From Candidatus Gastranaerophilales bacterium (GTDB taxonomy: Bacteria > Cyanobacteriota > Vampirovibrionia > Gastranaerophilales > Gastranaerophilaceae): DNA of 64,000 bases. The translations under genes were made by a program, and so were the position numbers. A model generated the notes under the pieces. That model made no database searches and had not been told where the DNA came from. It saw only the letters and a program-made list of their open reading frames with translations. Location of the stretch: NCBI GenBank assembly GCA_947630045.1, contig CANRGC010000001.1:1-64000 (forward strand), given 5' to 3'. Positions 20,009-47,004 of this stretch are shown in pieces. Position 1 is the stretch's first letter; each line of letters starts with the position of its first letter.

Positions 20009-20624
20009 CAAGCTTTCTTACATAGTTATCTGAAAGAGGAAGGTTATAAGAAATGATTTTCGGGCGCATAACATCGGAAAAAAGCCCCAGAAGTTCTTTT
20101 GTTTCTTCTTCTGCGGTTTTTGCTTTATAACAAATAAAATAGCCTTTTTTCTTTAAATGTTTTGAAGAAACTCTCCATACATCCGACATTTTGCCAACGG
20201 CACGATTGGTAATAATATCCGCATTGAGCGGCTCAATTTCTTCTATTCTGGAATTTATTGCATTGAAATTTTTAAGAGAAAGTTCATCTTTTACAAGGTT
20301 TAAAAAATTTATCTTTTTCCCTTTTGAATCAACCCCCGCAATCTTTTTATCGGGAAAGAAAATCGAAAGAATTAAGGAAGGAAACCCGCCCCCGCAGCCG
20401 ACATCCAATATTTTTTTAGAGCTTGAAAAGCCGTCAAAAAGCGTTATTGCAAGACTGTCTAAGACATGTTTTTCAAAAAGAACATCCATGTCGTTTTTGC
20501 TCATGAGGTTTGTGTGCGAATTATATTCAACAAAAAGTTTTTGCCAAGTTTCAAGGCGGCATAACGCTTCTTTTGAAGGGGTGAAATTAAACATTTTTTG
20601 AATTTCGTTTTCAATCTGAATCAT
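19989..20624 (-). CDS. rsmG: 16S rRNA (guanine-527-N7)-methyltransferase
   Basis: SAM-dependent methyltransferase (GidB) that modifies G527 of 16S rRNA; its loss gives low-level streptomycin resistance in other bacteria. The 211-residue protein shows HVLDSLAI, the SAM-binding ILDVGCGGGFPSLILSI, and DIITNRAVG. Its start overlaps the end of the upstream ATPase/TPR gene by 14 bp, so the two are probably cotranscribed. Confidence 0.94.
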   Translation of the reverse strand: MIQIENEIQKMFNFTPSKEALCRLETWQKLFVEYNSHTNLMSKNDMDVLFEKHVLDSLAITLFDGFSSSKKILDVGCGGGFPSLILSIFFPDKKIAGVDSKGKKINFLNLVKDELSLKNFNAINSRIEEIEPLNADIITNRAVGKMSDVWRVSSKHLKKKGYFICYKAKTAEEETKELLGLFSDVMRPKIISYNLPLSDNYVRKLVIFEKN

Positions 20625-22920
20625 AAAGCGCCTTCATGCCTTCAAAAACATAATTCCCGAGCCTTATTCTCATATCGTTAATTCTTGTTAAGACAATATC
20701 CGTATTTTCTTTTGAAGCCGAATTTCCAAGAAGTTTTTTTGCTTGAAAATAACAGATTAAAGCCTGTTCGTTTTGTTTGGAATTATAATAAAAGTCCCCG
20801 AGTTCAAGAAGCGAAATTGCGGTTTCAAAAGAATTTTCCGAATATCTTGCATATTCAAGCGCCGATAAAAGATATTCATAAGATTTATTCGGCTCAAAAT
20901 CTCTGTAAATTTGAGCGATACTTCTTGCGGCGTAATAAGAGTCCAGATAACTGTTTTTGCTTTTTGAAAGCTCAAAAGCGAGTTCCAGAGAAGAAATAGC
21001 CGAGTCAATTTCGCCTCTGTCGGCAAGAATCATGCCCGAAGCGGAATAACATTTAATAAGATATTTGTCATTGTTTGAAAGTTTGGAATAGTTAATCGAA
21101 TTTTGATATTCTCTGAAAGCTTCGTCATAATTTTCAATTTCTTCATAAATTGAAGCAATTTTATATGAAATTTCAGGTAAAAGCGGGTGGGCGCTTCCCT
21201 TTGAAGCAATAATGAGTTCTCTTGATTGGCTATATTCACTTATGGAATCTTCAAACGAACTTTCCATTTCATAAATTTCCGCAAGACCCATTTTAGCCCT
21301 TGCAAGAAGATACTGAGGAACATTTGCTTTATAAGAAATCAATTCGTTGTAACAACTTTTTGCCATTTGAAGAGAATACATTTTTTTATAAATCTGACCC
21401 GATTTAAGCTTGCATTCGGCAAAAAAGGCAAAATCGTCATTTTCTTTTGAAAGTTCAAACAACTCTTTTAACAAATAAAGTGCGGAATGGTTGTCGTTCA
21501 GTTTTATATAGTTTTCAACCGATTTTATATAAACTTTCTTTTTGTCCAAATAAGTTTGAGCAAGCGGATAAGCCTCGTTTTTTAAAATATGAAGCGCTTC
21601 TTTATATTTGTATTCTTTTTCTAAATCGGAAACCTTTTCCAATAAAAGAGTAAGCTCTGACTTATTTTCTTTCTTTTCTTCGGGTTTTGCCGCTTTAAGC
21701 TTTTCTCTTTCATCTCTTTGTTTTCTTAATTTATCAAGTCCGGACATATTTTTGTTTGTTGCGCCCGTCACAAACCATTGCGGATTGCTGTTTATTGCCT
21801 GTGCAACATAATTAAAGGAAGGTTTTGCAACGATTTTTTGGACCTTTGGAGTTATTTCTTCAAGGGCAGATATCAGCTTTCTTATAGTATCTCTTGAAAG
21901 CCTTAATAGCCTGTCTTTCAGGCTTTTTTTAAGTTCATTTTCATATACTGAAATAATGTTTGAATATAGAGAAATTTTATCTTGCAAACTGACATTTTCA
22001 ATAAAATAGCTTCTTAAATATGACTTAATGTAATAGGTTCCGAAAAATTCCGAAATCGCATATTTTGAAAAAAGATAGGGAAGCTGTTTTGTGTCGCCGA
22101 GTGAATATGCTTCCATAAATTTTGAAGAAACATTATGATTTATGCAGGCTAGATTTTGCAATATCGGATAATAGTTGTTGGGAATGAGTGAAATTTGCTT
22201 TCCGATTATAAAATCGGAATATAAAATATCTTTGTTTGCAAATTCTTCCATAAGTTCGCTAATTGAGCCGTTAATCGACTCAATATAAGTCAGGGACATT
22301 TTTATATATAATTCATACCCCTCGCAGCAATTGTAAAAATTGTTTATACAGTCATCCGAAAGGTCTTGAAAAGAACTTTTTATAACCTTAAAAAATTCTT
22401 TTTGGGGAATTTGTTCAAAATCAAGTCTTTCAACGCTTACTGTCGGGTTTTGCGCAATTTCGGCTTCGTCGTTTTTTGACACGATGATAACTTTTACATT
22501 TTCCAAACCCGATATATGGAGCAAAAAATCATTGATTTCGGAATTATTTTGAATAAGTTCGTAGTTATCAATAACAACAACTGCGGGATATTGAAGGCTG
22601 TTAAAATAATAATTCACTTTATTTAAAAAGGCTTCTTCGGGGTTTTTGTTGAGTTCAATTTTGCCTTTCATGGCATGCTCTCTAAAAGAATCATAGAAAG
22701 AAAGCAAAAAATCGTCCGTCGAAGTCAGAGGAAAACAAATGTGATGAAAGTTTAAAATATCTTTTTTGTAAACTTTTAAGGCATTTTTCAATGTGGAAGA
22801 TTTTCCCGAGCCTGCATATCCGCTGATATACAAAATATCGGAATTTGAATTCAAAAAGTCATGGATTTCTTGAATATAATTGCTGTAAAATTTTGTAAAA
22901 ATATCTTCCATATCTTCCAT
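20611..22920 (-). CDS. P-loop ATPase with TPR repeats (STAND-like)
   Basis: A 769-residue protein. The first 200 residues form a P-loop NTPase with Walker A YISGYAGSGKSSTL and Walker B AVVVIDNYELI, followed by a helical region. After a charged low-complexity linker (around residue 405: KLRKQRDEREKLKAAKPEEK) come about eight TPR-like repeats to the C-terminus (ARAKMGLAEIYEMESSFEDS, EISYKIASIYEEIENYDEAF). The arrangement is that of STAND signal-transduction ATPases. No DNA-binding domain or effector domain is evident. It overlaps rsmG and is divergent from the cluster starting at 23065; a link to that cluster is only a guess. Confidence 0.75.
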   Translation of the reverse strand: MEDMEDIFTKFYSNYIQEIHDFLNSNSDILYISGYAGSGKSSTLKNALKVYKKDILNFHHICFPLTSTDDFLLSFYDSFREHAMKGKIELNKNPEEAFLNKVNYYFNSLQYPAVVVIDNYELIQNNSEINDFLLHISGLENVKVIIVSKNDEAEIAQNPTVSVERLDFEQIPQKEFFKVIKSSFQDLSDDCINNFYNCCEGYELYIKMSLTYIESINGSISELMEEFANKDILYSDFIIGKQISLIPNNYYPILQNLACINHNVSSKFMEAYSLGDTKQLPYLFSKYAISEFFGTYYIKSYLRSYFIENVSLQDKISLYSNIISVYENELKKSLKDRLLRLSRDTIRKLISALEEITPKVQKIVAKPSFNYVAQAINSNPQWFVTGATNKNMSGLDKLRKQRDEREKLKAAKPEEKKENKSELTLLLEKVSDLEKEYKYKEALHILKNEAYPLAQTYLDKKKVYIKSVENYIKLNDNHSALYLLKELFELSKENDDFAFFAECKLKSGQIYKKMYSLQMAKSCYNELISYKANVPQYLLARAKMGLAEIYEMESSFEDSISEYSQSRELIIASKGSAHPLLPEISYKIASIYEEIENYDEAFREYQNSINYSKLSNNDKYLIKCYSASGMILADRGEIDSAISSLELAFELSKSKNSYLDSYYAARSIAQIYRDFEPNKSYEYLLSALEYARYSENSFETAISLLELGDFYYNSKQNEQALICYFQAKKLLGNSASKENTDIVLTRINDMRIRLGNYVFEGMKALYDSD

Positions 22921-23064: not shown

Positions 23065-24057
23065 ATGCAATTCAGCGCATCTCAGTTAGATAAAATACCA
23101 AAAAATTCATATGTAGTCGTAGAAAAAGACTATGATAACGAGGATCATATTATTAAAAAACGCCCCACAACAGGCGCCAGAATTGTTGCGGACAAGCTTG
23201 TAAACGATGTCTTTTCATACACGAAAAAAGGCATGAGGGGCTCTAAAAACAGTAATTTTTACGAGTTTTTATCCCTCGGATTGGTTCCGAATTTAATCGG
23301 TTCGACTATGTTAATTTTAATTTCAAACGCCCTTAACGGTACATTTGGCGGACGTGACACAATGTTTGCCAAATTTAACGGCAAGAAAATGGCGGGCGGC
23401 GTTGTTCTTTACGCTGCGGGTAAATGGATTGGCAACAAGATTATAAACAAAGGCGTTAAAGCAAAAACCGGCATAGATATCGATATGCCTTATAAAAAAG
23501 TCATTCATGAACTTCCCGAATATAAGGGGGATACAAACACAACTTCGGTTGAGTTCCATAAAGTTTTTGAAAGTGTCGACTTCCCGAGATGGGATTTGAT
23601 AAATAAAATGGGTGAGCACAACGGCAACAGATATGAATATTATGATGCTCTTGCCAAGAAAATGGGATATCATGGCGATTTAAATTCGGCAGATCAGGTT
23701 GTTCAGCCCAAAATCAGAGAGGTTCTTGTTAAGGCATCTTCCGCAAAAGCAATTAGCTCATATATTTGGGCAGCGCTTGGTTGCGCAATTGCCGCACAAG
23801 ACTCTTTCGGAGACTTTATGAGCCTCAGAAATTCACCTTCTTTAGGTGCAAAAGTTAAAAAATTGCCCAAAGAAATTTGGCATTCCGTTAAAGAAAGTAC
23901 AAAATCTCTTGCTAAGACAAGAATGGGTAAAGTTCTCATTGCGGGCGCAGCTTTGTCAAGCATGTTTGGCATAGTAAACGCAACCAAAGGCTTTAAGGCA
24001 GAAAAAGAAGATAAAACATCACAAGTCAACTATAACGAAAAATATATGGAGTTTTAA
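23065..24057 (+). CDS. Unrecognised protein with hydrophobic segments
   Basis: A 330-residue protein I cannot assign. It lacks a signal peptide. Hydrophobic segments lie around residues 74-90 (LVPNLIGSTMLILISNAL), 110-122 (GGVVLYAAGKWIG) and near the C-terminus (MGKVLIAGAALSSMFGIVNA); between them is a charged region with many Lys, Asp and Tyr. The C-terminal arrangement, a Gly/Ala-rich helix followed by a charged tail, recurs in the next gene's product. GGAG lies 9 nt before the ATG. The stop codon shares a base with the next start (TAATG), so the two are coupled. It heads the four-gene cluster that ends with two GH13 enzymes. Confidence 0.7.
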   Translation: MQFSASQLDKIPKNSYVVVEKDYDNEDHIIKKRPTTGARIVADKLVNDVFSYTKKGMRGSKNSNFYEFLSLGLVPNLIGSTMLILISNALNGTFGGRDTMFAKFNGKKMAGGVVLYAAGKWIGNKIINKGVKAKTGIDIDMPYKKVIHELPEYKGDTNTTSVEFHKVFESVDFPRWDLINKMGEHNGNRYEYYDALAKKMGYHGDLNSADQVVQPKIREVLVKASSAKAISSYIWAALGCAIAAQDSFGDFMSLRNSPSLGAKVKKLPKEIWHSVKESTKSLAKTRMGKVLIAGAALSSMFGIVNATKGFKAEKEDKTSQVNYNEKYMEF

Positions 24058-26468
24058 TGTTAAACACCAACAATCAAAACAACATACCTCAAGCAAGCCA
24101 GCTTCTTCAACAAAGAATTCGTGACAGACAGCTCTACGAAAACTTTGTCAACAAACCGGAGCATATTACCTGTGACGCTCCAAAAGGAAGTCTTGTTAAA
24201 GAAAATCTTGCTCATCAGTTTGGTGCAACATTTACAGACACTTTTCAGGACGCAAAAAATTTAAGCTCCGCCCTTTCAACAGGAAAATCAAATGACCACT
24301 CGCTCGGAAGAATGAATGACCTTGGAATGAAAATCGGCGGCGGTCTTATTGCGGCAGCTCTTATGGGCACAAAAGCGGCAACAAATAAAAAACTTATGGA
24401 AGTTTTAGGTTTTGGAACATTCTTCTCGGTTATGTCTCTTTGGCCGAAAGTTGCCATTGATTTGCCTACAAAATTAAGATTTGGTTTTAACCCTCATCAA
24501 AAATATATCGACTCTCAGGGAAGGAAAAAAGCATTCTTCCTTGATAATCAATATCTGCCATGGGATGTATGGTCAAAAGAAGATATTGAAAAAGTTGCGG
24601 ACAAAATGAAGGTTCCAAAAGACTTAAAAGACAGAGAAGAATTCACAAAAGAAAAAATGCGTACAATTGCCCTTCAAGGAAACACCTTGTGGATGTTAAC
24701 CGCAGGTTTTGCAACACCTCTCTTGACTTCACTTTGCTGTAACAGAATTGAAGAACTAATCAAAGCGCCTTCCAACAAATTAAACCTCGCAATGATATCA
24801 ATGGGCTATAAAAGCGACGATTGGTCAGCTAAAAACATATTCAGCGCATTTAATAATATGGGCAGATTTAAAAACCAGAACAAAGAGTTTAATGCCCTTA
24901 TAAAAGAACTTGAAGAAGGCAGAATGCCTCAAGACCTGACGAAAAAACTCGACAAGCTCTTTAATCTTCATAACTATGTTAATTTTTCACTTGAAAATGA
25001 GCTTTCAAAAGAATTCGTCGGCACAAGCGATTTGGTTGGAAAACTCTTTAATAAATCAGAATTAGTCTTTGAAGACAGCAATTTAATCAAACATATTGCA
25101 AAAGGCGAAAGCCCCGAAACGGTTTCACAAATTTTGGGCGAATTGAATTCCGTCAAAAAGAGTCTTATTGATGCGGGCGAAACACCTTCACTTCATAAAA
25201 TTATTACTGACATAACAAACAAAAGAGGCGCATTCTTTACATTGGAAGGACAGCCCGAATGGGTTAAAAAACTTGTCGGTTTAACCGAAGAAGAAGTTTC
25301 AGGCTTTGCGAAACAGGCTTCCAAATTTAGCAAAGATGACTTATCGCACGGCGCCGAAATTTTAAGAAATATCTACTCTCACGGGGTTATTCCCGCTCAA
25401 AAAGAAATGAGAAGATTTGCCAAAAATGTCCAGCTTTTAAACAGCATGTCGGGCGAAAAATATAACAAAGTTTTGAACATCGTAATTAAAGCAATGGGTA
25501 TTAGCGATAAAGAACTCAAAAAAATAAACATTTCGCACGAAGCTCACGGCTATCATATTCAGGAATTGTTTACCCAAAAAATTCAAGAACTTGTAAAAGA
25601 AGGAAACGAAGCCAAGTATGAAAAATTTATCAAAAAACTTGATAAAGCAATAAATTCACTTGATAAAGGTTCAACAAAAGACAGTGCGGAAGGCGCTATC
25701 AGCAAGACATTCACAAAAGTTGCCGACAAATTAAGAACTCGCCTCGCCGCTTTAACAACAAAAATCGGCGCAAACGAAAATGAAGCTCTTAAAGGCACAA
25801 GACTCGGCGCATTTATGTCGGAAAGAGGCTTGAGCGAACTTGAAGAAATGGCTGCAAAAAGAAATATAACTTCGGTTGAAGCTACAATTGCGGGAATAAG
25901 AAGCGCATTTGAACTTGAAAAGAGAATAGAAAACGGTTCTTTCTTGAAAGACTGGCAGGAAGCCATTAAAAATGTTGACAATATAGGCGAAATAAAGGGC
26001 GGTACGGAAGGCTTATACAAAGCTGCAAGAAAACTTATGTGGCAAAGCACTTTTAACGACTTAATGAATAAAGGTCATATAAAAGGGAACGGCGCATTCT
26101 ATAAGGCTATTGTAGAAACAGTATTCTCGGAACAATCTGACAATATAGACGTAAAAGCTTGGCAAGCGCAAACCAAAAAAATTCTTTTTGGCGAAGAATA
26201 CATTCCAAATCCGTCTCTTAAATTCTTACCTACGCAAATAAAGCCAAACGGTGATAAATTTGCCGAATTTGGGGAATCATTATTAAGTGCGGGCAAAAAA
26301 CGTGTTGACCAAATATGTAACGACAGAAGATGGATGAAAGTCTTTGGCGGCATAACCGCAGCACTTGTCGGCGTAACATTTATATCACAACTTTTCTTTG
26401 GCAAAGTCAAAGATGAAAATCTTTACGAAAAAAAGACAAACCAAGATAATATTGAAGGCAGGAAATAG
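24057..26468 (+). CDS. Large unrecognised helical protein with membrane segments
   Basis: An 803-residue protein of unknown function. Hydrophobic stretches lie near residues 92-140 (GGGLIAAALMGTKAA, EVLGFGTFFSVMSLWPKVAI), near 215-235 (WMLTAGFATPLLTSLCC) and at the C-terminus (VFGGITAALVGVTFISQLFF). The long middle (about 240-760) is soluble, Lys/Glu-rich and probably helical. The C-terminal end, one helix and a charged tail, resembles the preceding product. It overlaps the preceding gene by one base and is followed 3 bp later by the first GH13 gene, so the three are surely one operon. A scaffold anchoring the glucan enzymes at a membrane is one possible reading, unproven. Confidence 0.7.
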   Translation: MLNTNNQNNIPQASQLLQQRIRDRQLYENFVNKPEHITCDAPKGSLVKENLAHQFGATFTDTFQDAKNLSSALSTGKSNDHSLGRMNDLGMKIGGGLIAAALMGTKAATNKKLMEVLGFGTFFSVMSLWPKVAIDLPTKLRFGFNPHQKYIDSQGRKKAFFLDNQYLPWDVWSKEDIEKVADKMKVPKDLKDREEFTKEKMRTIALQGNTLWMLTAGFATPLLTSLCCNRIEELIKAPSNKLNLAMISMGYKSDDWSAKNIFSAFNNMGRFKNQNKEFNALIKELEEGRMPQDLTKKLDKLFNLHNYVNFSLENELSKEFVGTSDLVGKLFNKSELVFEDSNLIKHIAKGESPETVSQILGELNSVKKSLIDAGETPSLHKIITDITNKRGAFFTLEGQPEWVKKLVGLTEEEVSGFAKQASKFSKDDLSHGAEILRNIYSHGVIPAQKEMRRFAKNVQLLNSMSGEKYNKVLNIVIKAMGISDKELKKINISHEAHGYHIQELFTQKIQELVKEGNEAKYEKFIKKLDKAINSLDKGSTKDSAEGAISKTFTKVADKLRTRLAALTTKIGANENEALKGTRLGAFMSERGLSELEEMAAKRNITSVEATIAGIRSAFELEKRIENGSFLKDWQEAIKNVDNIGEIKGGTEGLYKAARKLMWQSTFNDLMNKGHIKGNGAFYKAIVETVFSEQSDNIDVKAWQAQTKKILFGEEYIPNPSLKFLPTQIKPNGDKFAEFGESLLSAGKKRVDQICNDRRWMKVFGGITAALVGVTFISQLFFGKVKDENLYEKKTNQDNIEGRK

Positions 26469-26471
26469 AAA

Positions 26472-28334
26472 ATGGGCATGAATTCGGTAAACAACATTAA
26501 TCAACAGACTCAAATTCCGGTATATCAAGCAGCAGCTCAACAAACGCCGCAGCCTGTTTATTTTCCGGTTGCGCCCGTAATTTACAATATTCCTTCACAG
26601 TCAATTTACCCTGCGCCTGTTGTAATTCAGCCTCAGGTTCCTCAAGTTCAACAGCCTTCACAACAAACAAGCAACATGAGCAGCCTTTTGCAAGAATATT
26701 TAATTGCAAACAACAGACCCGTAAACCCGACTGCGGAAGTTAAAGCCGTAGACAACCAAACAAACGGCGGCGAAGTTTGGCATAACAATTTAAAAAATAT
26801 GTTAAGAAACTCTGAAGCAAACTTTATGGCTCTTATTCCAAGAACAATGAATGCCAAAGACACAGACGGAAACGGGCTTATTCAAGGAAGTGAAATCAGA
26901 GGAAACTTTGTAAACGCAATAGACAGACTTGACGAGTTAAAAAACCTCGGCATAAACACCTTGCATATTCTTCCTATTCACCCAACGGGCAAAAAACACG
27001 CAATGGGAATAGCCGGTTCTCTTTATTCGCCGGCAGATTTACTTGCAATAGATCCCAATTTGAAAGACCCTAACACCCCCGGCACGGTTGAAGAACAGTG
27101 CAAAAACTTTATTAACGAATGTCACAAAAGGGGAATTTCCGTTATGCTTGACCTTCCAAGCTGTGTAAGCGTTGACTTTGCGGAAAAACACCCCGAGTTA
27201 ATGGCATATGAAAAAAACGGCTCTGACAAAACTCCGGGCGGTTGGCAAGATATCAGAATGTTTAGAGTTTTTGACGACGAAGAAAAAAGAATTTTAAACC
27301 CGCATTTGCTTGAACTTCATAAAAAATACGTCGATATGTGCATTGACTTAGGTTTTGACGGAATAAGAGCGGATGTCGGAAGGGCAAAACCTGCGGAATT
27401 CTGGGACGTTATAATTCCTTACTCAAGAGCAAAAGACCCTAATTTCGGATGGCTTGCGGAAACTTATACTTATGAAGACGCTTCTCCTCAATTAAATATG
27501 CCTCATGACAGACCTATCGAACTTATGAAGGCAGGTTTTGACACTTATTACGGTCAATATCATATTTACGACCAGTGGACAAAAGCTTCCGAATTGAGAA
27601 AATATGTTAACGAACAGATTGACATGCAAAAAGAATTTCAAGACAGACAACCGAGAACATTAATCGGGTCTTTCTCAACACACGATGACCAAAGCCCGAT
27701 GTTTTACGGCGGAAGCCCTTGGGTACAATTTACAAGCATTCTTCAATCAACCCTTCCTCTCTGCAATCCTTATTTTGTAGACGGGGTGCAATCGGGAGAT
27801 TATTATCTTTATCCTTATGAACATGCTTATGCGCCCGAAACTCAGACAGACACAAATGAGTGCACCGTTCATAAAGGAAGAATTGATATTTTCAACCCTT
27901 CAAGAAAACCGGGCGGAAACAACCCCGAAATCGGTCAGCAAATTGCAAATATGCTAAACTTAAGAAACGGCGAATATAAAGACGTTATTACAAAAGGTTC
28001 GACATGTTGGTTAAAACCGACTAAGCCAAACGATGAAATTATTGCCTTTGCAAGACAATATGGCAATAAAACGCTTCTTGTCATCGGAAACAGAAATGTA
28101 AACAAACGCAACAGCGCTAAATTCGCAATCAAAGACATTGTGAAAGGTCAGGAATTAAAAGACTTAACCGTGCCATACGGCGAAAAGAGCTATTTTCAAA
28201 CCGAAAACGGAGAATTAAACGTTGATTTGGCTCCTTCAAGAATGCATGTCTTTGAAATTTCCGCTCCGAATATTGAAAACGATGCGTTTGATGTATCAAA
28301 ATTTGTAAACGGTGTGTATACGAAAGTAAAATAA
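26472..28334 (+). CDS. GH13 alpha-glucan enzyme with EF-hand-like loop
   Basis: A 620-residue glycoside hydrolase family 13 protein. Residues 1-70 are Gln/Pro-rich low complexity without a signal peptide. The (beta/alpha)8 domain starts near 115. Region II is GIRADVGRA with nucleophile D301, region III WLAET with acid/base E330, region IV STHDDQ with H404-D405. Region I reads DLPSCV (227-232), so the usual Asn-His pair is replaced by Cys-Val. D130-E141 (DTDGNGLIQGSE) matches a calcium-binding EF-hand loop. The catalytic triad is intact, so it should act on alpha-1,4-glucans; hydrolase or transferase (maltosyltransferase-like) cannot be told. It is followed 77 bp later by a second GH13 gene. 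Confidence 0.85.
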   Translation: MGMNSVNNINQQTQIPVYQAAAQQTPQPVYFPVAPVIYNIPSQSIYPAPVVIQPQVPQVQQPSQQTSNMSSLLQEYLIANNRPVNPTAEVKAVDNQTNGGEVWHNNLKNMLRNSEANFMALIPRTMNAKDTDGNGLIQGSEIRGNFVNAIDRLDELKNLGINTLHILPIHPTGKKHAMGIAGSLYSPADLLAIDPNLKDPNTPGTVEEQCKNFINECHKRGISVMLDLPSCVSVDFAEKHPELMAYEKNGSDKTPGGWQDIRMFRVFDDEEKRILNPHLLELHKKYVDMCIDLGFDGIRADVGRAKPAEFWDVIIPYSRAKDPNFGWLAETYTYEDASPQLNMPHDRPIELMKAGFDTYYGQYHIYDQWTKASELRKYVNEQIDMQKEFQDRQPRTLIGSFSTHDDQSPMFYGGSPWVQFTSILQSTLPLCNPYFVDGVQSGDYYLYPYEHAYAPETQTDTNECTVHKGRIDIFNPSRKPGGNNPEIGQQIANMLNLRNGEYKDVITKGSTCWLKPTKPNDEIIAFARQYGNKTLLVIGNRNVNKRNSAKFAIKDIVKGQELKDLTVPYGEKSYFQTENGELNVDLAPSRMHVFEISAPNIENDAFDVSKFVNGVYTKVK

Positions 28335-28411
28335 AATTAAAGTTTTATAAAATTAAGTACGTTAAATAAAAGGTAAGGGCAAGGACGACAAAAGGAAAAG
28401 GAGCAAGTCTC

Positions 28412-31400
28412 GTGGATTTATCATCAATAAACAAGTTAAAGAAATCTGAAAATAATGCACAGGTTGCTTTTCAAGGCAGAAAAAGCGTTAAAGACAAGAA
28501 AGGCGCTCCCAGAGAATGCTTCTTTTTGCCGCATATAAATTTAAAAAAAGGTGAAACCCTCGGGATAGAATTTGTTCGCCTTGAAAGACAAAAAGACAAA
28601 AGTTATAAACTTGATGAAAATGCCACGGTGATGAGATATCCCGCACTTACCGACGAATTTAAAGACTTTGAAAAAGGTTTAAGAACAAGTGTTGAAGTTG
28701 ACGTTTCAGCCCTTAAAAACACGGGTGAATACGGTTACAGATTTGCCGTTTATAACGACAAAGGAAAACGTTTAAAAACATTTTCCGACGATGTCGGCGT
28801 TAAAATAAATCATAAAGACGGTCCTTTTACCATTGTTTCCACAAGACAAGGTTTTCCCGCAACCGAAGGCGCTATGGAACATATTTTTACAGACTCTTAC
28901 AATGTCAAAAATGCGCCCAAAAACTTTGAAAGAAGCCATTTTAACAAAGCCGGCGGAAATATTCAGGGAATAATTGAAAAAATTAATAACGGAAACGAGC
29001 TTGAGCCATACAGATATATTATGACAACTCCTCTTATCGGGGGCGGAAGCGTTTCACCGCATATGTATCACCCCGCAAATCACTTCAAGGTTTCTGACGG
29101 CACAGGCACTAAAAAAGACTTTAAAGACTTACAGGTTGCTTGTTTTAATAAAGGAAAAGGCTATGTCTTAGACGGCGCATTTACATCTTCCGGATATGAA
29201 GGTGTGCAATTGAAACATGCGCTTAAACATAAAGATTCGCCCTTTAAATATTGGTTTAAAAACCCTGAAAATGACGGTTATGCGCTTGGGGTGTTATCTG
29301 ACGACGAAGAAACCGACAAATATACCGGTATCAGAATTGTAAACCCGAAACACGCTCCCGGTTACGATTACAACCCAAACATGCCTACATATATCCAATT
29401 TTATGACACAAGGCTTGTAAGCAAAGAACAGCTGGAAGACAAGGGAAAAATAATTAAAGAGTATGCAAAATCAAACACCGATGACCCTTATGAAGAAACA
29501 ACATGGGATGATTCAATTTTAAGCAACACTTTTGAAGTTGACCCCGATTCGCCTTTGTACAGCACAAGAGATACGGGAACGCTTGCACAATGGAATAATG
29601 ACGGTATTTTGCCTTCCATTTTAAGCCCCAAACATTTGCCTTATTCATTCAACAGAAAAGCAAAAGTTGGCGGAACAACGGGCTGGGACGGAAATATTGA
29701 CCTTGTTAAATTAAATCTGTCAAACCATTCAAGTGACCCTAAAGTTATTGAAGGTTCAAAACAGGCTAAAAACCAAATGTATAACGTTGCAAGATATTGG
29801 ACGGAAGAAGCCAGAAATGCCATTTTAATGAATATTGCGGAAAGAACCCACTATATTGAAGGCGAGCCGCTTGCAAACTATTTTGACAATATAGAAAAAA
29901 CTTATAATCTTGAAAGAGGCTCTCTTGAAACGCTTCGTGCAAACATTGAGAAAGAAGACAAACGTGACGAATTTCCGAGCGCAAAAGTTCCTGACGCCTA
30001 TGATTATAAAATTGCGCATGAGAAAAAAGACGGCACAACGCTTATTAACGAGGCAATTTTAAACTTCCCTCTGGAATCACTAAACTTTTCGCCCGAGCTT
30101 CTTGGAATATTATCCACGCCTTATATCACTCCCCGCCCTAATCTTAAGTGTAACTCATACGATTCAAGACTTGAGATTTTTAACAAAGTTAAAGACTCAA
30201 AAGATGAATATTATTCGCCCAATATGAAAGAGGTCTATGGGGAAATTTTGCCTTCAATGGTAAGAGAAATTCTTCATAATATTCAAGCAAAAGGCGAAGG
30301 CAAAACCGATCTTTACAATGCAAACGGCAATGATATAGGTGAATTAACGGAATATGGCAAATATTTTGTTAAGGTTGCCATGGATGACATTATGCAATTT
30401 TGCATTTCATACGCACTTTTCGGAGAAGACGGACTGCCCGCAAAGAACGGAAATTCTCTTGATTTTGAATTGGCTGACAATGACGCTGACGGAGAAGGAA
30501 AGCACCTAAACCTTAAAAGGCTTGAAATTTATGAGTCAAATTCAAAAAATGAAGCTGACGCAATTGCAAAAAAACTTAAAACCGGTCTTAAAGACTTAAG
30601 AAAAAATGAAATATACATTGATTTTCAAAACTATCTGAAGAAAAAATATACCACTCTGACGCTTGACGATTATAAGCTTGCCGATGCAATTATTGACAAA
30701 ACGGGTGCAGGCTTAAACTGGCGTTTTGACGCAGCAAAAGACGTTGGCGATTTTGAAGAAACAAAAGGCAAAAGAATTTCGGCAGAAGATGTTTGGGATA
30801 ACGTAATAGACTTTTGGAAACCCTTTGTTAAAAATGTAAGAGATGTAAACGATTCGGCATATATCGTTGCGGAAGTTACTTCTCTGTGGGATTATGCGAA
30901 CTCAAATTGGGGTAAATACGGAAACCCTGACAAAGCTGAAAAAATGTTTTATGAAGAAGTTGGCGCAACAACGGGAAGCAACTATTCAACCTTCTTTGGT
31001 CTATACCCTCACCTTTTTGGTCAAAACATAGAAGACGGTTCTGTAAAAGACTTTCGTTCAATGTATAACTTCTTAAATCAGGTTAGAGAGTTTGTTAATC
31101 CGCCTGAAGAAAAAGGTCATTCTTCTTCGGAATTTATTCTCGGAAGCCATGTATTTCTTGACAATCACGACAAACCACGTGCGGCTCACCTTCAAGCCCT
31201 TGATTCCGCACTGTTTTGGAGCGACTTTAAAAATGACGCCGACAAAGAACGTGCCGAAGAAATTCTTAATACCCCTTACAATGACAACATGAGCTCAAAA
31301 GCCGTTGCAGTAGCGGAAAAATATCTCGAATATTTTGAAGCAAGAGCATGTGAGCTTCATTTAGACGAGTCTGACAGAGAAATAATCAAAGATTCAATAA

Positions 31401-32566
31401 TTCATCTTGCAAACGGTTACAGCTTTAAAGACGTTAACGACAACACAAGCGATTTTAAACGTGCAGAAGCTTTTGGCAACAAGCCTTTTGAAATAACCAT
31501 TCCGCATGTATTAAAAATTGCCGAGAAAAAAGGTCTTAAACTGGATGAACAAACCAAAGAAGATCTTGCAAACGGAGTTTTTGAAGATATGGTTGCGCCT
31601 TACGAAAGCAAAATGACTGCAATTTATGACCTTATGACGGCAACAGTCGGCATTCCGACAATATTTGCGGGCGACGAGTTTGCTCAGACAGGCTCTGAAA
31701 CAAAGTCTAAAAACTGGGCTTTGGGTTGCAGAAACCTTACAATGCACGATTGGTTAAAAGACCCTAAAAAATTTCACGTAAGAAGTTTCTATAACAGGCT
31801 TCATCAAACAGCTCTTCTCGCTAAAACTAGCAAAGAAATGAGCGCTCTTGCAAACGGCACACCGATTGTAATCGGCGCAAAACAAAATGTACAGTCTGTT
31901 TTTGATATAGCCACAAAAGATGAAGTAATAAACGGTCTTATTAAATTAATTGATAATGATATTCAATATAACAAATCAGAACCGTTTAAAGATACAATTC
32001 AGGCATGCAAATTTTTAAACTGCATACAGGAAAAAGGCAGCAATGTTACCAAAGATGAGATTGTTAAAGAGCTTAAGTCAATGGATAAAGACGAGTTGTT
32101 TAACAACCTTGGAAAAACTCTTGATAAATGCAACGACGGCTTTAAAGACTGGATATGCAACGGTCTTATTTCAGGCTGCATGAGCAAAAAACCTTCAATC
32201 GGCACGGAAACGGGCGCCGTTGTTAAATATAATAACAAAGGAAGCGTTGTTGTTTCCATGATGACAAACGCATTTATACCCGATAAACCGGATGTTAACA
32301 TACTTAAACCGGAAGCCGATGACGCCCCCGATGTTTCAAGCGTTAAACTCATAAACCCCGCCAATAAAGAACCGATTGCAAAAGAGGGCGCTATTTTCAT
32401 AAGAAAAGCTTATGACCCGAAAGAGTGGAAATTTGTTAATGCGGGCAGATATGTCTATACAAAAGAGGGAACTCTTAAGCCTATGGATAAAAATGCCTCA
32501 GACAAACTTGATTCAACGGTTACGTTTTTCTGCAAAGCCGGCGAAGACGTATACAGAACAATGTAA
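28412..32566 (+). CDS. Giant GH13 alpha-amylase-family protein
   Basis: A 1384-residue GH13 protein, about twice the usual size. An N-terminal beta-rich region (about 35-150) could be a carbohydrate-binding module. Region I is VLDGAFTSSG at 252-261, with Asn-His replaced by Thr258-Ser259; region II RFDAAKD with nucleophile D773; region III VAEVTS with acid/base E821; region IV DNHDKPR with H919-D920; then TIFAGDEFAQTG. Regions I and II are about 500 residues apart rather than the usual 80-120, so a large extra domain is inserted. No signal peptide is present; residues 16-24 (QVAFQGRKS) carry the F-[SQ]-G motif seen elsewhere in this window. The GTG start has AAGGAG upstream. The exact reaction is unknown. 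Confidence 0.83.
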   Translation: MDLSSINKLKKSENNAQVAFQGRKSVKDKKGAPRECFFLPHINLKKGETLGIEFVRLERQKDKSYKLDENATVMRYPALTDEFKDFEKGLRTSVEVDVSALKNTGEYGYRFAVYNDKGKRLKTFSDDVGVKINHKDGPFTIVSTRQGFPATEGAMEHIFTDSYNVKNAPKNFERSHFNKAGGNIQGIIEKINNGNELEPYRYIMTTPLIGGGSVSPHMYHPANHFKVSDGTGTKKDFKDLQVACFNKGKGYVLDGAFTSSGYEGVQLKHALKHKDSPFKYWFKNPENDGYALGVLSDDEETDKYTGIRIVNPKHAPGYDYNPNMPTYIQFYDTRLVSKEQLEDKGKIIKEYAKSNTDDPYEETTWDDSILSNTFEVDPDSPLYSTRDTGTLAQWNNDGILPSILSPKHLPYSFNRKAKVGGTTGWDGNIDLVKLNLSNHSSDPKVIEGSKQAKNQMYNVARYWTEEARNAILMNIAERTHYIEGEPLANYFDNIEKTYNLERGSLETLRANIEKEDKRDEFPSAKVPDAYDYKIAHEKKDGTTLINEAILNFPLESLNFSPELLGILSTPYITPRPNLKCNSYDSRLEIFNKVKDSKDEYYSPNMKEVYGEILPSMVREILHNIQAKGEGKTDLYNANGNDIGELTEYGKYFVKVAMDDIMQFCISYALFGEDGLPAKNGNSLDFELADNDADGEGKHLNLKRLEIYESNSKNEADAIAKKLKTGLKDLRKNEIYIDFQNYLKKKYTTLTLDDYKLADAIIDKTGAGLNWRFDAAKDVGDFEETKGKRISAEDVWDNVIDFWKPFVKNVRDVNDSAYIVAEVTSLWDYANSNWGKYGNPDKAEKMFYEEVGATTGSNYSTFFGLYPHLFGQNIEDGSVKDFRSMYNFLNQVREFVNPPEEKGHSSSEFILGSHVFLDNHDKPRAAHLQALDSALFWSDFKNDADKERAEEILNTPYNDNMSSKAVAVAEKYLEYFEARACELHLDESDREIIKDSIIHLANGYSFKDVNDNTSDFKRAEAFGNKPFEITIPHVLKIAEKKGLKLDEQTKEDLANGVFEDMVAPYESKMTAIYDLMTATVGIPTIFAGDEFAQTGSETKSKNWALGCRNLTMHDWLKDPKKFHVRSFYNRLHQTALLAKTSKEMSALANGTPIVIGAKQNVQSVFDIATKDEVINGLIKLIDNDIQYNKSEPFKDTIQACKFLNCIQEKGSNVTKDEIVKELKSMDKDELFNNLGKTLDKCNDGFKDWICNGLISGCMSKKPSIGTETGAVVKYNNKGSVVVSMMTNAFIPDKPDVNILKPEADDAPDVSSVKLINPANKEPIAKEGAIFIRKAYDPKEWKFVNAGRYVYTKEGTLKPMDKNASDKLDSTVTFFCKAGEDVYRTM

Positions 32567-32575
32567 GGCGTTTGT

Positions 32576-33229
32576 TTAACCGCCATTGTTCATAAGCGGA
32601 AAGGCAAGAAAAGTGCCGTCATCAAGACGCCACCTGAACCAGCCTGTTTTTGTAAGCCCGTCATAGGTGGTAATTTTTACTAACATCCAATCATTTTCAA
32701 TAAGCCAAAGAGAAACATGCTTTGCAAAAAAGAACTTGTCTACAACGTTGCTGTTATTGTCGGATGACGAATAGAGCATTTTATTTTTATCGCCCACGTT
32801 TCTGAAAATATAAATTCCGTATTTTCTGCCGTAGACGTTAAAAAAGTCTTCCCAGCTCATATAGTCTGTGTTTTCGGTTTTCTTTATCCACCCGAAAAGC
32901 CTTAATTTTTGATTGTAACAAACACAAAACCACTCGTCATTGTCAGATTTCACCGGCAAAACAAAAAGGTTTTTTGAAGGCAAAGACACAAGAAAAGTTT
33001 CTTCTTCTTTTTGAGCGGAAACATCATTTAAAATTAACTTTCCATAACTCAAAGAGCCGACTGTTTCGCTTTCTGCGCTTGGGTTTTTATAAATTTTGTT
33101 TTCACCTTGAAGAAAAACTGCGCCTATTCCATAATATGAATTAGAATTCTCATAAGAGGGAAGATAGGTTGCCTGAGCCTTAAGAGAAAATAAAATTAAA
33201 AACAAAAATATCGGAATTATTTTTTTCAT
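32576..33229 (-). CDS. Secreted SH3-like domain protein
   Basis: A 217-residue exported protein with a Sec signal peptide (MKKIIPIFLFLILFSLKAQA). The mature part is beta-rich and looks like one or two bacterial SH3-like modules (KIYKNPSAESETVGSLSYGK, then DEWFCVCYNQKLRLFGWIKK and DWMLVKITTYDGLTKTGWFR). Such modules usually bind cell wall. No catalytic domain is seen. It is convergent with the giant GH13 gene (9-bp gap). No Shine-Dalgarno sequence precedes the ATG; TATAAT lies 6 nt upstream. Confidence 0.75.
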   Translation of the reverse strand: MKKIIPIFLFLILFSLKAQATYLPSYENSNSYYGIGAVFLQGENKIYKNPSAESETVGSLSYGKLILNDVSAQKEEETFLVSLPSKNLFVLPVKSDNDEWFCVCYNQKLRLFGWIKKTENTDYMSWEDFFNVYGRKYGIYIFRNVGDKNKMLYSSSDNNSNVVDKFFFAKHVSLWLIENDWMLVKITTYDGLTKTGWFRWRLDDGTFLAFPLMNNGG

Positions 33230-46236: not shown

Positions 46237-47004
46237 TTGAACGTAACTAAAGTAAACAATTATAGTGGCGTGCCAAAATTCAGCGGGCTTAGGGCGGCAA
46301 GAATTTTGTCGAAAGCAAGCACAATCAACAGCTGGCAGCAAAGACTTGCTCTGGGTGTTGCAGCTATGGCAATTCAGCCCGCTATTGACCTGAGAAATAA
46401 ACAGGTTGATGAAGAAACAAGAAAAGTTTCCGCAAACAGAAGCTTCGCCAAAGCTCTTGTCGGAATGGCAACCGGAATTGCAGTCAGAGGGGGCTGTATG
46501 AAAGCGGTTGAAATCGGTTTGCAAAAAGACAGAGCGACAAATTATCTTGCAAAAATAACCGCAGAAAACAACACCAAAGAAGCAATTGATAAAGCAAAAA
46601 ATTTCATAAAAAATAAAGGCGGAGCAAAGCAATATGCTTCAATTATAGGAACAATCGTTGCTCTTGGGGTTATGTTATTTACAAACTTCCTTGTTGACGC
46701 ACCTTTGACAAATAAATTGACGGATAAACTCAATAAAAAACTAAACAATAAAAACGAAGAACAAAAGCCAAAAGAGGCTCAAACCAATATCCCGCCCGAA
46801 CCAAAAGAGGCAGTTTCACTTCCAAAAGAAAAAGAAGCGCCAAACATACAAACTTCTTTGGCTGAACCTGTCCTTCAAGCGCCTTGCGCACAATTTCCAA
46901 ATTTGAATTTAAAAGCGCAAAATCAACCTTTGCAAGGCGAATTTGGCATTCAAAACGGTCAAAACCCCGTAATTATCAACAATAGAAACGGGGGTGTTTT
47001 ATGA
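46237..47004 (+). CDS. Unrecognised membrane protein, pair member 1
   Basis: A 255-residue protein of unknown family. Residues 13-18 (VPKFSG) carry the F-S-G motif. Hydrophobic segments lie about 38-50 (LALGVAAMAIQPAI), 70-85 (ALVGMATGIAVRGG) and 130-155 (IIGTIVALGVMLFTNFLVDAP); after that the tail is Lys/Asn/Gln/Pro-rich and probably disordered. The start is a TTG at 46237 with GAGG 8 nt upstream; the nearby ATG at 46223 is in another frame that stops at once. The end overlaps the next gene by ATGA. Confidence 0.65.
   Translation: MNVTKVNNYSGVPKFSGLRAARILSKASTINSWQQRLALGVAAMAIQPAIDLRNKQVDEETRKVSANRSFAKALVGMATGIAVRGGCMKAVEIGLQKDRATNYLAKITAENNTKEAIDKAKNFIKNKGGAKQYASIIGTIVALGVMLFTNFLVDAPLTNKLTDKLNKKLNNKNEEQKPKEAQTNIPPEPKEAVSLPKEKEAPNIQTSLAEPVLQAPCAQFPNLNLKAQNQPLQGEFGIQNGQNPVIINNRNGGVL

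Follow-up and report, generated by a model that had tools for sequence, protein, structure and literature searches.

In bacterial glycogen operons (glgBXCAP) and in the Sus-type outer-membrane starch systems, alpha-glucan enzymes are encoded together, and to our knowledge neither has members resembling the first two proteins of the four-gene cluster described here (P1-P4), which lies in a 64,000-nucleotide stretch (the window) from the genome of a member of the Gastranaerophilales, relatives of cyanobacteria that do not photosynthesise. The last two proteins of the cluster are enzymes of the GH13 family, in most but not all subfamilies of which CSR-I is closed by an Asn-His pair; the GH13_48 subfamily is marked by a Cys before the CSR-II nucleophile (in about 81%), by NH in CSR-I and by a CSR-VII that ends in GQ (PMC11239784). 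Glycogen storage or degradation by these bacteria has been raised in passing as a possibility (PMC5877343, PMC3787301). The literature search, which left many subscription papers outside its reach, returned no description of the cluster, and the four-gene system is apparently not described before, as the initial annotation of the window had supposed.

P1 to P4 and all features within them are located on the forward (+) strand, and the open reading frame calls agree in every detail with the layout first proposed. P1 (23065..24057) encodes 330 residues and P2 (24057..26468) encodes 803, the stop codon of the former and the start codon of the latter sharing the sequence TAATG (24055-24059) in a one-base overlap. 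P3 (26472..28334; 620 residues, with a low-complexity N-terminal tail of about residues 1-100) follows after 3 bp and P4 (28412..32566; 1384 residues, GTG start) after a further 77 bp. The gene upstream is divergent (20611-22920, minus strand) and the gene downstream convergent (32576-33229, minus strand), and P1-P4 therefore stand alone. Promoter and terminator scans gave little above shuffled sequences. The divergent neighbour encodes an AAA ATPase with TPR repeats that shows a weak MalT-like TPR match and in which no HTH was found. A role in regulating the operon throughout the class was considered for it and rejected, the gene being found beside P1 among the tested loci only in the same genus and at L097; inspection by eye also places it beside P1 at L181.

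The four-gene system is real and conserved, a conclusion that we regard as nearly certain. Among 58 relatives, orthologs of P1, P2, P3 and P4 are present in 45, 46, 46 and 44 genomes, respectively; percent identity served to tell the P3 orthologs from a paralog that is 33-42% identical, and this separation is a judgement call. All four genes occur in 43 of these genomes and none in 11, and the four genomes with a mixed pattern are either incomplete or affected by a contig end; when only the 43 genomes of 90% completeness or more are counted, the full set is present in 34 and wholly missing from eight, and one is mixed (contig end). The Fisher test for co-occurrence of P1 and P4 over the 58 genomes gives 1.3e-9, a value that ignores shared ancestry. 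P1-P2-P3 are adjacent and mostly overlapping at nearly every positive locus examined: P1 and P2 share a strand at 44 loci with gaps mostly between -16 and +2 bp, and P3 lies within 130 bp of P2 at 43 loci, and the operon arrangement is thus not due to chance. P4 is found on the same strand after P3 within about 1 kb at 17 loci, and in the majority of the other genera of the window's family it is unlinked to P1-P3 while keeping the same pattern of presence. At five loci from one family of another taxonomic order, P1-P2-P3 are adjacent and P4 is divergent beside P1. The four-gene order expected throughout the Gastranaerophilales holds for P1-P2-P3, which are tight across this taxonomic order, but not for P4, which is adjacent in some genomes and distant in others. 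The idea of a single conserved system survives, as the genes do not occur independently in relatives and are jointly present or absent even where P4 is unlinked. P3 is split over two open reading frames at L112 5830-7484 (G054), reflecting either a frameshift or an assembly error. The whole set is absent inside genera whose other members have it (G001, of the window's own genus; G046 beside G054 and G055; G051 beside G036 and G056), which, as read from genus membership, suggests several independent joint losses. Searches with P2 also recover close relatives, including Candidatus Galligastranaerophilus, and P1 is present in 157 of 240 genomes sampled across the class Vampirovibrionia and in none of the genomes from other classes in a 386-genome sample of the phylum.

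P1 and P2 had been listed as two separate unknowns; they do lack a recognised family, but they are paralogs of one another. Neither has a Pfam or NCBIfam match above cut-off, no Pfam family recurs consistently among their orthologs (43 each), and no significant match that is consistent across orthologs was obtained from Pfam, NCBIfam, PADLOC and PDB sequences; with fold searches yielding nothing consistent either, membership of a known family was rejected. Their profiles align with each other over 197 columns (hhalign, 97.3% probability, E 1.8e-11), and the predicted plan of four membrane segments is common to both: by family-averaged hydropathy, three of the hydrophobic stretches fall within the region that P1 and P2 share, and the last one lies close to the C-terminus. 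In P1, segments 1 and 2 (residues 72-127; 23278..23445) reach their highest hydropathy at residues 77 and 118 and correspond to AF2 helices 73-93 and 97-135, segment 3 (226-245; 23740..23799) peaks at 235 within helix 209-243, and segment 4 (288-308; 23926..23988) peaks at 299 within helix 286-307. In P2, segments 1-3, together with the loop that P1 also has (88-230; 24318..24746), as defined by hydropathy and hhalign, have peaks at 95, 125 and 219, and are separated from segment 4 (763-782; 26343..26402; peak at 772) by a poorly conserved helical or coiled-coil insert of about 500 residues (about 231-730; 24747..26246) that was delimited by DSSP of the AF2 model. Segment 4 forms a Gly/Ala-rich helix followed by a charged tail in both proteins, an ending which the initial annotation had already recognised. 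The hydrophobicity of the segments is moderate (family averages 1.1-1.7) and, under the positive-inside rule, the charge bias fixes no topology; insertion of P1 and P2 into the membrane is predicted from the segments themselves. AlphaFold predicted both structures with moderate confidence (P1 pLDDT 76.8, pTM 0.71; P2 pLDDT 78.5, pTM 0.67), and their best Foldseek E values of 0.13 (P1) and 0.44 (P2) provide no confident match, while the best VIA-align Z for P1 (7.0) is inside the chance range for helical matches. P2 finds its best PDB profile matches among coiled coils and designed helical bundles, which are therefore read as matches of composition. The want of a confident fold match does not prove a new fold for either modelled protein.

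P3 and P4 are alpha-glucan-type enzymes without signal peptides, as anticipated from the window alone. PF00128 scores 29 bits on P3 and 30.6 bits on P4 against a gathering score of 22, and a signal-peptide-like N-terminus is absent from the orthologs of both; one P2 is flagged for a signal peptide, and the single P3 so flagged is a secreted paralog (L126). The window's own genome encodes a separate P3 paralog that carries a signal peptide (L168 10838-12439), which makes its absence from P3 look meaningful, and a TreS-like enzyme that carries one as well (L172 6948-8966). The catalytic nucleophile, general acid/base and transition-state stabiliser are D301 (27372..27374), E330 (27459..27461) and D405 (27684..27686) in P3, invariant in 43/43 orthologs, and D773 (30728..30730), E821 (30872..30874) and D920 (31169..31171) in P4, invariant in 29/29, on which ground the reading of P3 and P4 as degenerate, non-catalytic members of GH13 was rejected. 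In place of the usual DMVLNH or DAVFNH, CSR-I reads DLPSC in P3 (D227 to C231; 27150..27164; Cys231 invariant in 43/43) and DGAFTSSG in P4. The GlgE maltosyltransferase (GH13_3, 3zss), like P3, has no canonical Asn-His in CSR-I, and the pair is accordingly not a strict requirement of GH13; its absence from both P3 and P4 means that ordinary hydrolytic activity is not assured. The barrel of P4 is broken after strand 3 by a very large insert that extends to CSR-II (about residues 285-760; 29264..30691) and was placed by the GH13 profile segments 191-297 and from about 815 onwards in the PDB alignments, with D773 marking CSR-II.

The best evidence that P3 may act beside P2 is a natural fusion found in one genome (L174 8229-11189), where a single 986-residue open reading frame comprises the four P2 segments, a short linker and the GH13 enzyme; the fusion retains segment 4 of P2 and omits the low-complexity tail of P3. 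Other genes of sugar metabolism are found near the cluster: a glycogen-synthase-like GT5 gene beside P3 at L173 and L176, a branching-enzyme-like GH13 gene after P4 at L109 and, in the loci from the other taxonomic order, an MFS gene like sucrose/proton symporters (146 bits, below the NCBIfam cut-off of 511) that adjoins P4 or, at L177, lies one gene away. The fusion, the class-wide operon and, in genomes of the other taxonomic order, the MFS and glycogen-synthase-like neighbours argue against P1 and P2 being unrelated to glucan metabolism, in line with the link to glucans that was suspected at the outset, and it is highly probable that the system acts on alpha-glucans. That P1 and P2 share only transcription with the enzymes of an ordinary maltodextrin or glycogen operon is very doubtful: operons can mix functions and the genome does encode a standard GlgA (L185 4213-5766) and an alpha-glucan phosphorylase, but the presence of P4 matches that of P1 and P2 even in lineages where it is unlinked, the P2-P3 fusion exists and the P1/P2 pair is retained class-wide.

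On balance, we favour a model in which P1-P4 make up a single module belonging to the class Vampirovibrionia. P1 and P2, multi-span paralogs of ancient origin, would contact each other in a membrane platform from which P2 extends a long helical arm, and P3 would be held at the C-terminal end of P2. P4 would process the same glucan as P3, approaching it from the same side, and is possibly held through its N-terminal motif, although its holding is less certain than that of P3. We infer that both enzymes would act in the cytoplasm at the membrane, with imported malto-oligosaccharides or a glycogen-like polymer as the substrate. The placement of P3 at the membrane by P2 appears reasonably probable, and the combined model has slightly better than even chances; the membrane tethering of glucan metabolism put forward by the initial annotation is supported to this extent. 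If true, the model would show one means by which bacteria keep alpha-glucan enzymes at a membrane, and the named proteins, residues and natural fusion make the idea testable.

A multi-span paralogous pair beside glucan enzymes, together with the MFS gene of sugar-transporter type found close to P4 in the other taxonomic order, could also be read as a sign that P1 and P2 make up a complex that transports or channels glucans or malto-oligosaccharides, with P3 and P4 trimming the substrate on entry or exit. This is unlikely, as no ATPase or known transporter family was detected in the Pfam and NCBIfam scans, Foldseek gives no confident match and the long variable helical arm of P2 is unlike carriers.

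It is likewise improbable that P1 and P2 give form to a membrane body within the cell, or envelop glycogen granules, to which an FxG motif brings enzymes and other proteins. The motif closes the N-terminal tail of P4 (VAFQG, F20-x-G22; 28469..28477), where F20 and G22 are invariant in 29/29 orthologs. It is present on 26/29 P4 tails and on 22/26 tails of a divergent GT5 against 2.0 and 1.8 expected from shuffles, respectively, and a looser form is present on 17/41 P1 tails against 6.3 expected, while on P2 tails it is not above chance. The enzymes so brought would be P4, the divergent glycogen synthase and a branching-like enzyme, and a duplicate adenylate kinase of G015 (contig C1, L152 18885-19610, minus strand) bears the motif on an N-terminal extension, downstream of which the adenylate kinases of relatives mostly begin to align. 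As a genome-wide signal the motif was rejected, the loose pattern occurring 48 times against 42 in shuffles in a census of 760 genes from parts of two genomes only, and a post-hoc start rule raises the enrichment only to 3.3-fold (p 0.005). G001 is devoid of P1-P4 and yet keeps a tagged GT5 and a branching-like enzyme, which means that P1-P4 cannot be the sole receptor, and the motif, which in a number of enzymes lies directly against the first strand of the domain, may therefore be structural. FxG on P4 and the divergent GT5 may be a targeting signal and is treated as a lead. A dedicated intracellular alpha-glucan structure, built by P1 and P2 and occupied by P3, P4 and others, some with a portable F-x-G sorting signal, is improbable; if true, both the type of compartment and the sorting signal would be previously undescribed.

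Several further proteins were observed that have the motif, hydrophobic segments or both. The own genome encodes a second, divergent glycogen-synthase-like GT5 of 958 residues with an FxG N-terminal tail (contig C8, L183 2167-5043, minus strand) and a 771-residue GH13 protein with an N-terminal LSFG motif whose NCBIfam score falls between branching enzyme and TreZ (contig C3, L159 3793-6108, minus strand). GT5-like genes at L187 4011-6875 (-) and L192 5310-8072, 10133-13087 (-) have a hydrophobic segment after a disordered N-terminal tail, which suggests a membrane-tethered variant of glycogen synthase. In the window, 46237-47004 (+) encodes a 255-residue protein without a Pfam family that has an N-terminal VPKFSG and strong hydrophobic segments; this protein and another FxG-bearing hydrophobic protein (L158 10073-11938) were considered as paralogs of P1 and P2 and rejected for want of hhalign support.

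Compared with known systems, the P1-P4 operon differs from the Sus-type outer-membrane starch systems in having no SusC/D-like gene and no signal peptides, and the gut lineage Gastranaerophilales and the wider class share a system that is built on two families without detectable relatives. The closest relatives of P4 are in the cyclomaltodextrinase/neopullulanase group (GH13_20), its best PDB profile matches (1ea9, 1sma and 1j0h) covering barrel strands 1-3. It scores 27.9 bits against the cut-off of 540 for the corresponding NCBIfam family, over profile positions 47-159 only, and is set apart by the insert of about 470 residues ahead of CSR-II and by a CSR-I without Asn-His. The PDB profile matches of P3 are 4gkl (best, E 2.4e-26), 1gju, 3dhu and GlgE (3zss; E 4.7e-17, only 64.8 bits). 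Beyond the nucleophile, the alignment with GlgE passes through D..-(T/A)KP-x-x-FW and reaches the acid/base; unlike GlgE, P3 shows nothing recognisable as the GlgE N-terminal domain, and the NCBIfam scan did not report the GlgE family for it. With the GH13_48 maltogenic amylase of Thermotoga neapolitana (4gkl; PMC11239784) P3 has the GH13 barrel and the catalytic triad in common, but it does not carry the marks of that subfamily, having Ala instead of Cys before D301, no NH and no GQ and, unlike the Thermotoga enzyme, P3 is tied to membrane-type partners.
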